Of a stretch of 64,000 nucleotides of DNA, positions 6,820-10,554 are shown in pieces (the first letter of the stretch is position 1; the number at the start of each line of letters is the position of its first letter). Position numbers and translations under genes: made by a program. A model generated the notes under the pieces. It was not told where the DNA came from, ran no database searches, and saw only the letters and a program-made list of their open reading frames with translations. The DNA is from Nioella sediminis (GTDB lineage: Bacteria > Pseudomonadota > Alphaproteobacteria > Rhodobacterales > Rhodobacteraceae), in contig NZ_MNBL01000041.1 of the NCBI RefSeq assembly GCF_001879695.1, positions 62,001-126,000 of the forward strand, in the 5' to 3' direction.

Positions 6820-7072
6820 GGGGTCAGACTAGGGCCATTCACGGTTTGGGGAAAGAAGAGCCGTCACGGTTTTGTGTCGGTCAGCCTTCCAAGTTGAAGA
6901 GCGGATCTCTGAACACCACTGCATGAGAAAGCCCGACTTGCAGCACGAGGGTCTTGACCCTTTTCAGGATCTTCATGTGCGTGGTGCCCCCCCTGTGTTG
7001 CTCTTGCCACGTGTCACCCGGAGTGTTCGGGCAGCGCGTGAACGGCACGCACTGCCGTGTTGAGAATGCGCA
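6820..7072. other. Intergenic region with no gene recognised
   Basis: About 250 bp between the MFS gene and the DUF1772 gene. It is slightly less GC-rich than the coding DNA. A small inverted repeat (AGGGT-CTTG-ACCCT followed by TTTT, 6948-6964) points along the plus strand, where there is no gene upstream to end, so I do not call it a terminator. The MFS promoter should lie near 6820-6900 but no clear boxes are visible. Confidence 0.5.
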
Positions 7073-7582
7073 TCACGCGGTCGTTGACTGCGATTGGGTC
7101 ATCCAGAGAAGCCCCAGAAGAAGCAGCGCGGCGGACACAACGCAGGCAACCGTCCGAACGGAGTTCCAGAAGGTCCAGCACGGCACGTAGGTCTGCATCC
7201 AGTACTCGCGTGCGGTGCCCGAGGTCGTCTCCATCCCGGCAAGGGCTTCGTTCATGGGAACGTTGAAGAAAACCGTGACGCCGAAACATCCGATCAGGTA
7301 GACCAGCCCGGCCGCCATGATCAGCGCCCCCGCCGGGCCCGTGAGCCCAAAGCCACCATAAGCCGCGACGGCGACCGAAACGGCAGCCATGCCAAGAAAC
7401 AGCGTCATGAAGACCCAGCGAAACACTTCGCGATTGATGACTTGCATGGCCTCGACGCCGCCATGGCCGCCGGTCTGCGCGAGCGACCGCATGATGAAAT
7501 CGGAAAAGGCCAGGAACACGCCGCCCACGAGGGCATAGGCGAGGATTGAGAATTGCATGAGAAAGTAGAAAGCAGTCGACAT
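7073..7582 (-). CDS. DUF1772 / anthrone-oxygenase-like membrane protein
   Basis: A 169-residue protein with four hydrophobic segments (about residues 8-28, 52-75, 80-102 and 140-162). The sequence VFFNVPMNEALAGM, with a conserved N-x-P-x-N-x-x-L pattern between helices 3 and 4, and the later EYWMQTYVPCWTFWNSVRT segment (W...W.x.NxxRT) are typical of DUF1772, whose fungal relatives are anthrone oxygenases. The bacterial role is unknown. It follows the NmrA-like gene by 65 bp on the same strand and is probably cotranscribed with it under the AraC-controlled leader at 8473-8580. Confidence 0.82.
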   Translation of the reverse strand: MSTAFYFLMQFSILAYALVGGVFLAFSDFIMRSLAQTGGHGGVEAMQVINREVFRWVFMTLFLGMAAVSVAVAAYGGFGLTGPAGALIMAAGLVYLIGCFGVTVFFNVPMNEALAGMETTSGTAREYWMQTYVPCWTFWNSVRTVACVVSAALLLLGLLWMTQSQSTTA

Positions 7583-7647
7583 TGTCGGAACTCCTGATTG
7601 GGGTGGCGCGGCAGGACAGCGATGCCTCCAGCCGCGAATTGTGAGGG

Positions 7648-8475
7648 TCAGGCGGCGGCAGACCAGGCGCCTGCGGTCATTGCGGTCTGCGCAAATTCGG
7701 TGAAGTCGCGAGGCTTGCGTCCCAGGGCGCGCTCGACACCATCTGCCGTGTGGGCGTTACGTCCATCCAGCGTTTCGCGGGCGATCTGCGTAAAGACCTC
7801 GGCCACGAAGTCGCCACCGGCGGCCGCGACATTGGCGTGAAAGTCTTCAAACGTAATCGGGATATGCTGGATGTGACGATCCAGCGTCGTGGACAGCACC
7901 TCGGCCATCTCTGCAAATGTCATCAGGCGCGGGCCGGTGACTTCGTAGCGCGCGCCGATATGCCCGTCTTCCGTCAGGGCCGCGACCACCACGTCGGCGA
8001 TGTCGTCAATGTCGATGATTGGCTCTTTGATGTCACCGCCGGGCATTGGCAGAACGCCGCCCAGGATCGGGTCACGCAGATATCCTTCGCTGAAATTCTG
8101 CGCGAACCAGGCCGCCCGCACGATGGTATAGGGCAGGCCCGAATTGCGGACGATCTCTTCGCCCAGGGTGGCGAAATGCTCGCCGCGGCCGGACAGCAGG
8201 ACGATGTGTTGAAGCCCGCTTTCGCGTGCAACTTTGGTAAAGGCCTCCAGCTTCTCGACAGCACCCGGGAAGGCCAGGTCGGGGAAATAGGTGACATAGG
8301 CTTTGGAAACGCCAGCCAGAACGGGTGCCCATGTGGCTGGGTCTTCCCAATCGAAGGGGGTCTCGGACCGCCGGGCACCGCGCCGCACGGCGACGCCTTT
8401 TGCTTCGAGCTTGCTGGCAACGCGGGAGCCGGTTTTTCCGGTGGCACCGATAACGAGAATGGGTTGGTCAGTCAT
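7648..8475 (-). CDS. NmrA-like NAD(P)-binding protein (atypical SDR)
   Basis: A 275-residue Rossmann protein. The dinucleotide-binding motif GATGKTGSRVASKL is at residues 9-22 (G-x-x-G-x-x-G), and HIVLLSGRGEHF plus YTIVRAAWFAQNFSE match the NmrA/QOR2-like atypical short-chain dehydrogenase branch, which senses or reduces with NAD(P)H (for example quinone reductase QorB). ATG 8475 is preceded by CCAAGGAGACAGAAC, a good ribosome-binding site. The frame is open for 57 more codons upstream, but those cover the duplicated leader and are not coding. It lies two genes downstream of the AraC-type regulator, and the leader operator suggests control by it. Confidence 0.86.
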   Translation of the reverse strand: MTDQPILVIGATGKTGSRVASKLEAKGVAVRRGARRSETPFDWEDPATWAPVLAGVSKAYVTYFPDLAFPGAVEKLEAFTKVARESGLQHIVLLSGRGEHFATLGEEIVRNSGLPYTIVRAAWFAQNFSEGYLRDPILGGVLPMPGGDIKEPIIDIDDIADVVVAALTEDGHIGARYEVTGPRLMTFAEMAEVLSTTLDRHIQHIPITFEDFHANVAAAGGDFVAEVFTQIARETLDGRNAHTADGVERALGRKPRDFTEFAQTAMTAGAWSAAA

Positions 8476-8580
8476 GTTCTGTCTCCTTGGGTCTGGTTGA
8501 TGACCAAGGTTTAGAAAGACCGGGGGCTGCGGGTATTGACTGCGCCTGCCATGGTTTTGACATCCGCTGCCAATCGGATC
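8473..8580 (-). promoter_or_regulatory. Duplicated leader, copy 1, with putative AraC operator
   Basis: The roughly 105 bases in front of the NmrA-like gene are clearly repeated in front of the DUF1330 gene (8947-9055). The best conserved part, read on the minus strand, is a direct repeat TTGGCAG...ATGGCAG (plus-strand CTGCCA at 8546 and 8567), spaced exactly 21 bases (two helical turns) with GCGGATGTCAAAACC between. That is the layout expected for an AraC-family dimer site. The AGGAGACAGAAC Shine-Dalgarno region is also shared. The operator lies about 71 bases before the start codon. Confidence 0.75.
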
Positions 8581-8661
8581 GCGGGCAGGATGTTGCCACA
8601 AAAGAAAAACGGCGCTGGAATGCCCAACGCCGTCCTTCTCGGTCACTCTGACCTGATGTGT

Positions 8662-8949
8662 TCATTCGGTTTCATACAGCGTGAATTGCATGTCCGCGGC
8701 TTCTTCACGCAGAGGCTTGCAGGCGGTGTATTCAGGCGAGGCAAACCATGTCTTGGCCGCGGCGGCGTCGGGAAAGCTGACAATGGCGATGGAGTGCTTT
8801 TTTTCGTCCCCGACCAGCGCGCTGACCTTGTCACCAATGGCAACAAACTCACCCCCATGGGCAAGCACGGTCGGACCCGCCGCAGTGGCATAGGCATCCA
8901 TCTTGTCGGCATTCTTTACGTCGAAACGTGCAACGATAAGTGCGGTCAT
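8662..8949 (-). CDS. DUF1330 family protein
   Basis: A 95-residue protein of the ferredoxin-like dimeric alpha/beta-barrel type. MTALIVARFDVKNADKMDAYATAAGPTV, then GGEFVAIG and the HSIAIVSFPDAAAAKTWFASPEY segment are classic for DUF1330, a family with no proven reaction. ATG 8949 is supported by CCAAGGAGACAGAAC; longer open sequence upstream is the repeated leader, not protein. It sits between the AraC gene and the NmrA-like gene, each with its own copy of the same leader, so the two are likely expressed in parallel rather than as one message. Confidence 0.85.
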   Translation of the reverse strand: MTALIVARFDVKNADKMDAYATAAGPTVLAHGGEFVAIGDKVSALVGDEKKHSIAIVSFPDAAAAKTWFASPEYTACKPLREEAADMQFTLYETE

Positions 8950-9055
8950 GTTCTGTCTCCTTGGATCAAGCTGATGATGACCAGGAATTAGACCGCCCGA
9001 GGGGCACCGGTATTCACCGCGGCTGCCAAGGTTTTGACATCCGCCGCCAATGGGG
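8947..9055 (-). promoter_or_regulatory. Duplicated leader, copy 2, with putative AraC operator
   Basis: This second copy precedes the DUF1330 gene. The core direct repeat on the minus strand is TTGGCGG...TTGGCAG (plus-strand CTGCCA at 9023 and CCGCCA at 9044), again 21 bases apart with the identical inner sequence GCGGATGTCAAAACC. It begins only about 20 bases after the araC-type gene stop, 74 bases before the DUF1330 start. Conservation of the operator above that of the surrounding leader suggests selection on binding. Confidence 0.75.
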
Positions 9056-9070
9056 CGTGTCGCAAGGCCC

Positions 9071-10069
9071 TTATCCAAGAGATTTCCGATAGGCCGCCGG
9101 TGTCACGCCCATCCATCGCTTGAAGGCGCGGTTGAAGGCGCTTTGCTCGGAATACCCGGTGAGGAACGCGATCTCGGACAGCGAATAGCGTTCTTCCTGC
9201 AGCATGGCCGTGGCGATCTCGCGCCGGGTTTCTTCGGTCAGGGTCTGAAAGCTGAGACCATGTTCGGCAAGGCGTCGGTGAAAGGATCGGGCGCTCAGGC
9301 CCAGCCTGCGCGCGATGTCTCCCATCTTGGGCAGGCCTTCACTCAGCGCGCGGGCGATTTCGCCCTTGGTCTGTGTATGCAAGGCGGGCGTATCGTCGAT
9401 CTGCGCCAGTTCCTGATCAAGGTGAGAAACGAGAAACGCCGTGATGCCTTCATCCCCAAGGATATTCGGCTCGGAAAGGGACTGATGGGACAGAAGCATC
9501 GCATCCCTGTCCGCACCGAAATGCACGGGACAACCAAAATAGGCTTCGTGATGTTCGATTGTCCTTGGCGCCGGATGCCGGAAATAGACTTCGATCGGTG
9601 AAAACGGGCGCGGTGATACTTGCCGGCCGAGCGAGACGGCGCTCGCCATTGTCGCCTCAACCGAAATGCGCAGGCCGAGTCGGCGGACGCCTTCCCGACG
9701 CTGCACAAACAGCATTCCCCGAGGGGTCTGCATCAACTCGTATTGCGTGACGCTGGTCCAAAGGCGCCAATACCGTGCCACACGAGAGAAAGAGCCAAGC
9801 AAATTGGGCGCAGCCTTCCACGCAAGGCCAAGCGCGCCGTACTCGTCGGTTCGCATCGCCTCGCCAACAATCAATGGCAAAGGCGTTATATCCATTTGCT
9901 CAGCCATCAGCTCGATCATGCCGTAATAATCATCGTCATCGAGCATCCGTTTAGGGTCTAGCGGGCCATCGACATCCAGACCGACGGAGTCTAGCACCGT
10001 CCGGGCATCGACGGCATTACCCGCGACGCCCACAACCTTTCTGGCAAAAAGAGACGTTACCTGACCCAT
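9071..10069 (-). CDS. AraC-family transcriptional regulator (OruR/arabinose-binding-arm type)
   Basis: A 332-residue one-component regulator. Residues about 20-205 match the N-terminal ligand domain seen in OruR/VirS/ArgR-like AraC proteins (LPLIVGEAMRTDEYGALGLAWKAAPNLLGSF, then VEVYFRH-like IEVYFRHPAPRTIEHHEAYFGCPV). Residues about 235-330 are the two helix-turn-helix DNA-binding domain: MGDIARRLGLSARSFHRRLAEHG and YSLSEIAFLTGYSEQSAFNRAFKRWMG-TPAAYR. ATG 10069. Two 21-base-spaced direct repeats immediately downstream (8546, 9023) are the likely targets, so it probably activates the DUF1330 and NmrA/DUF1772 genes. The inducer is unknown. Confidence 0.92.
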   Translation of the reverse strand: MGQVTSLFARKVVGVAGNAVDARTVLDSVGLDVDGPLDPKRMLDDDDYYGMIELMAEQMDITPLPLIVGEAMRTDEYGALGLAWKAAPNLLGSFSRVARYWRLWTSVTQYELMQTPRGMLFVQRREGVRRLGLRISVEATMASAVSLGRQVSPRPFSPIEVYFRHPAPRTIEHHEAYFGCPVHFGADRDAMLLSHQSLSEPNILGDEGITAFLVSHLDQELAQIDDTPALHTQTKGEIARALSEGLPKMGDIARRLGLSARSFHRRLAEHGLSFQTLTEETRREIATAMLQEERYSLSEIAFLTGYSEQSAFNRAFKRWMGVTPAAYRKSLG

Positions 10070-10288
10070 GGTGCAAGACTAATCCGGTCTGAAGCGCGAT
10101 CCAAGCCTAGCGAAAGCGCGGCACGCTTCACCCGGGTTCCAAGTGCCGGCGGCGGCAAACGGAAGTGCTTGCGCATCCGGCGGGTAGGATTCTAGCGCAC
10201 GACGTGCGTGAGAAGGCGGATGCAAGCGAGGGACAGATAAGCCACACCTAACACCACGCATCTAATGCAATAATTTGTCGGGGGACTT

Positions 10289-10375
<87 letters not shown>

Positions 10376-10554
10376 AGGTGTCGTGACGGGGCAGATATCG
10401 CCACTGCCGGGGACTGTCAACGGGCCTCGATGCAAAAAAATGATTTCTTGCCGGGCGGGCGGTTCTGCCGCCCCCTGCCGGGACGATTTGCGCCTTGTCC
10501 TGCAAGGTTTGGCCGCGTATCACGGGCGCGAACTCGAGACCGGAGGGACTAGGC

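Follow-up and report, generated by a model that had tools for sequence, protein, structure and literature searches.

In the araBAD promoter, araI1 and araI2 constitute two direct-repeat half-sites, 21 bp apart, that adjoin a weak -35 element, and in AraC class II activation the half-sites extend from roughly -71 and -50. SphR of Pseudomonas aeruginosa is likewise an AraC-family activator, with a small regulon, and its operator is described as a pair of direct repeats, TGNCCSNNRNNSNCC, with 6-8 bp between them (PMC3900636). Hairpins at the ribosome binding site have been described for gene e and I-TevI of phage T4, in which a promoter lies in the 5' strand of the structure, long transcripts are silent and short ones are translated; for gene e, the inhibitory structure is missing its 5' portion in transcripts from late promoters (PMC3014915).

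The window, a 64,000 nt stretch of the Nioella sediminis genome, contains a locus comparable in part to each of these systems. The minus-strand order is an AraC-type regulator gene, a leader, a DUF1330 gene, a second leader, an NmrA-like gene and a DUF1772/anthrone oxygenase-like gene (Table 1), the last of which probably follows NmrA within one operon, as the adjacency is conserved in relatives. By its domains, the regulator belongs to the AraC/XylS family with a PF12625 N-terminal domain, the matches to HTH_18 (73.1 bits) and Arabinose_bd (124 bits) both exceeding their gathering scores (33.6 and 27.6 bits, respectively), and close homologues (E <= 1e-70) are found in 42 of 295 genomes of the family. 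Among proteins of solved structure, VirS (8rcx) is the closest to it in sequence. The best NCBIfam model is QhpR (NF049968), and identification as QhpR was rejected because the score of 209.1 bits falls below the curated cut-off of 250; nothing relevant appeared among the listed matches in the literature on QhpR, and a search restricted to open-licence literature found no paper on the AraC module. A tRNA gene (10292-10375, minus strand) lies directly upstream of the regulator gene and is the only Rfam match at gathering score in 7000-10500, the leaders matching no known Rfam RNA.

The sequence-only reading had proposed that about 105 bases in front of the NmrA-like and DUF1330 genes are copies of each other, and this is borne out: the leaders at 8471-8574 and 8945-9051 (minus strand) are together spanned by two families of direct repeat, D1 (8498-8577 and 8975-9054; 80 nt, 79%) and D2 (8471-8503 and 8945-8977; 33 nt, 88%). 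The identity runs through operator, predicted promoter and Shine-Dalgarno (SD) sequence as far as ATGAC and ends abruptly on either side, each gene beginning where its own leader ends. As that reading also stated, an AraC gene lies next door, each leader contains a pair of TGGCRG motifs with 21 bp spacing, and the centre of the repeat, GCGGATGTCAAAACC, is identical in both. The first operator is 21 bases beyond the AraC stop codon and a scan of 8400-9200 found no terminator-like site, which together make read-through from the AraC gene likely.

Table 1. Features of the locus; idx, position counted from the first T of the operator.
Feature	Position	Strand	Basis
AraC-family regulator gene (PF12625 N-terminal domain + HTH_18)	9071-10069	minus	domain matches
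Operator of DUF1330 promoter	9009-9049 (half-sites 9030-9049, 9009-9028)	minus	TGGC-N7-GTCAA/GTGAA
Predicted -10, DUF1330 promoter	8985-8990	minus	conserved TA at idx 59-60
Imperfect hairpin, DUF1330 leader	8959-8986	minus	left arm just 5' of predicted start
Predicted transcription start A, DUF1330 promoter	8978	minus	predicted from A71, in 64% of 92 leaders
Right arm CCAAGG = Shine-Dalgarno, DUF1330 leader	8959-8964	minus	
DUF1330 gene (PF07045)	8662-8949	minus	domain match
Operator of NmrA promoter	8532-8572 (half-sites 8553-8572, 8532-8551)	minus	TGGC-N7-GTCAA
Predicted -10, NmrA promoter	8508-8513	minus	conserved TA at idx 59-60
Left arm CCTTGG, NmrA leader hairpin	8504-8509	minus	covariation with Shine-Dalgarno
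Predicted transcription start A, NmrA promoter	8501	minus	predicted from conserved A71
Right arm CCAAGG, part of Shine-Dalgarno CCAAGGAG, NmrA leader	8485-8490	minus	covariation
NmrA-like NAD(P)-binding protein gene	7648-8475	minus	domain match
DUF1772/anthrone oxygenase-like gene (PF08592)	7073-7582	minus	domain match, conserved adjacency

Within the window, the pattern TGGCRG-N15-TGGCRG is found at two positions only, 8546-8572 and 9023-9049 (minus strand); 100 shuffles averaged 0.16 sites, and two of them reached two sites. Alignment of 42 leaders, consisting of 40 from other loci and the two of the window, reveals that the operator is longer than this motif: it comprises two 21-bp half-sites of the form TGGC-N7-GTCAAnAC, in which each TGGC is followed after 7 nt by a further conserved box, GTCAAnAC. 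Across 92 leaders, every base of TGGC and GTCAA is 95-100% conserved in both halves, a level that is partly by construction as the leaders were picked by a matrix built on such sites. TGGCRG alone was rejected as the operator, the GTCAA box being equally conserved. A scan of the 3.96 Mb assembly, the check suggested at the outset, found sites with 0-2 mismatches only at the two positions in the window; the total was 25 sites, against 14 for a reversed-pattern control, and the other 23, a number close to the control level, have three mismatches. Within the family, the exact operator is present in 28 of the 295 genomes. Of these, 27 belong to the 42 that encode a close homologue of the regulator, and the remaining genome (G091) harbours a 37% identical AraC homologue that ends at the site. 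Relaxing the family scan to one mismatch gave 58 sites as opposed to 31 for the control, so noisy a result that single-mismatch sites count for little by themselves.

A correspondence between residue 270 of the HTH and TGAC in the first half-site, initially seen by eye in seven of seven loci, later weakened to seven of nine TGAC loci against 8 of 97 TGGC loci, and was dropped as evidence. Separately, a related group of AraC genes (L156, L157, L158, L159 and L162) is directly followed by a 21-bp repeat with a second box that, by eye, reads GCCAA or GCAAA, and SDQS replaces SEQS in the second HTH of four of these five, the fifth failing to align; a code linking the second HTH to the second box is possible on this basis. 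Another 21-bp direct repeat, TGGCAGGGTTCGCAACCGGATTGGCAGGATTTGCAA, with TGGC first boxes and a GCAA second box, is found beside a different AraC-like gene on the minus strand of contig C51 of the same genome (L018) and in two loci of the same genus (L017 and L019).

Around AraC relatives, the operator lies 40-260 nt ahead of a module gene, defined as NmrA, MBL-fold, DUF1330, DUF4345 or DUF1772, in 74 of 80 named loci, using a site matrix trained on family sites, some of them from species that are also represented among the named loci. Over all 80 loci, the reversed-sequence control gave 11 sites scoring at least 12, the highest scoring 24. The six loci without an operator in this position are two cut by contig ends (L187 and L226) and four that are distant (L242, L245, L252 and L260). 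Gene content was taken from tblastn matches, simple longest-ORF calling being unreliable. The position of the operator is fixed relative to the NmrA operon and variable relative to the AraC gene: the site remains with NmrA when the regulator gene is divergent (L196, L198, L204, L208 and L214) and when it is downstream (L238, L239, L257 and L259). In seven loci (L124, L143, L145, L146, L148, L160 and L165), an MBL-fold gene is found in place of NmrA. Because the site tracks both AraC and the NmrA operon across many genera, and the assembly has no third copy at 0-2 mismatches, comparison gives good support to a two-promoter regulon and to an AraC operator, to which the regulator is predicted to bind. 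The ancestral unit would have been AraC - operator - NmrA (or MBL-fold gene) - (DUF4345) - DUF1772.

Other arrangements are also found. One locus (L160, 5923-7700, genome G166) has two operators, the first preceding an unnamed 223 aa gene and an SBF-family transporter, and the second an MBL-fold gene. Genome G087 encodes a 66% identical AraC homologue (L123) with no operator beside it, and has a good site on another contig (L165, 4725), ahead of an MBL-fold - DUF1772 pair, which suggests that this regulator acts in trans. The operator also occurs in loci labelled as other phyla, among them Acidobacteriota, Planctomycetota and Myxococcota; most of these come from metagenome bins and may be mislabelled.

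Between the operator and the predicted promoter, idx 41-57 is unconserved and nearly free of indels. Beyond it, the T and A at idx 59-60 are conserved in 76% and 83% of 92 leaders, and C70, A71, T72 and C73 in 56, 64, 55 and 70%, respectively. The TA is predicted to be the beginning of the -10 and A71 the start of the transcript. With A71 as the start, the half-sites would begin near -71 and -50, in keeping with class II activation by AraC; the spacing from half-site to -10 is constant in the aligned leaders, the -10 itself being predicted, and the fixed distance of the operator from the TA fits the site of a class II activator.

An inverted repeat absent from the sequence-only reading pairs idx 62-70 with the SD, the left arm of the hairpin falling in the interval from the -10 to the predicted start A and the right arm being the SD itself. 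In 92 of 95 distinct leaders, three having been left out for want of a recognisable start, the mean minimum free energy was -10.09, compared with -7.88 (sd 0.22) when halves were swapped between leaders, none of 200 swaps being as low. In a sliding test on 84 non-redundant leaders, the effect was limited to left windows that begin at idx 56-66, peaking at 62 (z -10.7). Ungapped stems paired in 537 of 672 cells, against 506 (sd 5.2; best of 300 swaps 519); double changes in these stems (147 against 132, highest swap 152) were not beyond chance. The right arm contained an SD-like stretch in 65 of 70 stems with at least six of eight pairs. A further set was reduced from the 72 leaders of NmrA or MBL genes to 57 by setting aside outliers and the loci of other phyla. 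Given the helix, 80.0% of positions in this set were paired against 74.3% when shuffled, and changes on both sides numbered 38 against 19.2, neither value being reached in any of 500 shuffles, which leave the relatedness of leaders in place; shifting the partner arm reduced pairing. Covariation supports the predicted pairing of the SD with the upstream arm; against it, RNAalifold predicted no consensus structure on the 57-leader alignment. The leaders of the window are represented in these sets by those of genome G005 (L117), 98-99% identical to them; the one near-identical to the window's DUF1330 leader (L117_4035) folds at -8.3 kcal/mol, with the SD unpaired at 0.29.

Each inverted repeat would sequester the SD of its own leader. 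Since the predicted start comes after the left arm, the arm would be absent from mRNA begun at A71 by the regulated promoter, and this mRNA would be translated; mRNA entering from upstream, from AraC or, for the second copy, from DUF1330, would be silenced. It is no more than tentatively proposed that the hairpin silences messages not begun at the AraC promoter. The broader scheme, in which AraC gates transcription, the hairpin silences upstream mRNA and the leader is a portable cassette used by NmrA, MBL-fold, DUF1330 and DUF1772 genes, is advanced with the same reserve. The step involving read-through is uncertain because the start is predicted and because the hairpin is on average retained (-10.55, compared with -8.42 when swapped) in six divergent loci, which receive no read-through from AraC, although these represent one clade, of which one member, L198, has lost it. 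Predicted openness of the SD was 0.15 from an upstream start, 0.40 from a start at idx 71 and 0.35 with the left arm shuffled, and the value of only 0.40 for the idx 71 start counts against this role, as does the imperfect pairing of the hairpin in the window's DUF1330 leader.

The start might instead lie upstream of the left arm, such that every mRNA carries the hairpin as ordinary 5'-UTR translational control, in the form of basal repression, a thermosensor or an mRNA stabiliser. This is unlikely, if less so than the alternatives considered below: covariation is consistent with the hairpin forming in the main transcript, as is its retention in divergent loci with this type of control, but the TA at idx 59-60 is the sole conserved -10-like element, with nothing conserved from idx 41 to 57, and YAYC at idx 69-74 stays when the hairpin does not. 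Among 16 leaders with weak hairpins, 11 retain YAYC near idx 71 (chance 0.04) and three retain the arm's GG, indicating that the putative start element is separable from the hairpin; the TA is kept in only eight of the 16.

Taken as a whole, the preferred explanation, that both leaders are AraC-dependent class II promoters, that the leader was copied to DUF1330 and that the hairpin acts on read-through, is considered probable, the part given to the hairpin being by itself only tentative. A dimer of the regulator, probably triggered by a small-molecule ligand, would bind the two 21-bp half-sites at about -71 to -31, where there is no good -35, and would switch on both DUF1330 and the NmrA-DUF1772 operon. 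That the protein represses both promoters rather than activating them is improbable given half-sites at about -71 to -31 without a good -35, which fit activation, and given that a scan of 8400-9200 found no sigma-70-like promoter match.

The original suggestion of a regulon created by promoter duplication stands in part: copying of the leader is upheld, but loci with two operators are recurrent, and a single creating event is not supported. Relatives have either one operator (L119, L186 and L190) or two (L184, L185, L188, L205 and L207), and loci that keep the leader without the operator, named beforehand as evidence against the idea, were mostly not seen among them. The two leaders of a genome share an identity of 0.80-0.83 for the window, G005, L185 and L188; the value drops to 0.59-0.65 for L184, L205 and L207, in which the DUF1330 leader has only the operator in common with the NmrA leader and the remainder is unrelated. 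In L188, the 3' parts of the leaders are nearly identical and the operators differ more, a pattern that suggests conversion, with only three genera suitable for such a comparison. On the AraC tree, a quick tree with labels that included L183, the second site of which would fall past a contig end, and omitted L117 (G005), the two-operator state takes three changes for seven rows, at least two of them forced by well-supported branches. Relatives of the DUF1330 protein outside the genus are at most 47% identical in the search of 295 genomes, and the sole other match at the cut-off in a search of 390 genomes is 48% identical. These searches suggested that DUF1330 and its leader were a novelty of the genus, an idea rejected by the scan of named loci, which found DUF1330 at the equivalent place in L183, L184, L185, L188, L205 and L207.

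In the lineage of the window, then, copying or conversion took in the entire leader: everything from the operator to the start codon would have been placed ahead of DUF1330, or would have overwritten an older, operator-bearing DUF1330 leader, leaving two transcripts under one switch. It is very improbable that the second leader is a neutral by-product of tandem duplication, of no regulatory meaning for DUF1330; the copy is clean, from operator through ATGAC, but DUF1330 loci with two operators recur (in all five listed above), and in three of them the operator is kept where the rest is unrelated. Just as improbable is that the inverted repeat is a DNA-level element bound by a second regulator, for although the left arm is fixed in place relative to the promoter, the arms change together and the loop varies in length, whereas in a site for a protein both sequence and spacing would stay constant.

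The leader shows existing control extended to another gene by the copying of a whole promoter-to-start unit, and a previously unstudied AraC group can be assigned a target operon and an exactly specified operator of two boxes, both open to direct test. As in the class II arrangement of araBAD, direct-repeat half-sites 21 bp apart adjoin a weak -35; the box sequences, the gene module and the hairpin across the start site are different. The likeness to SphR lies in a repeat period of 21-23 and a TGNC start, and the differences in the second box, GTCAA, and the genes at the present locus (PMC3900636). Of the cases described, T4 gene e comes nearest to the hairpin leader: there too a hairpin covers the SD, and a promoter overlaps its left arm, as is predicted for the present locus from a putative start, whereas the leader described here is chromosomal, adjoins an AraC operator and is kept, with compensatory changes, over many genera (PMC3014915). 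If it works as read, the hairpin would provide compact, terminator-free insulation of a gene from read-through, which in the literature examined here has so far been found only for phage T4.
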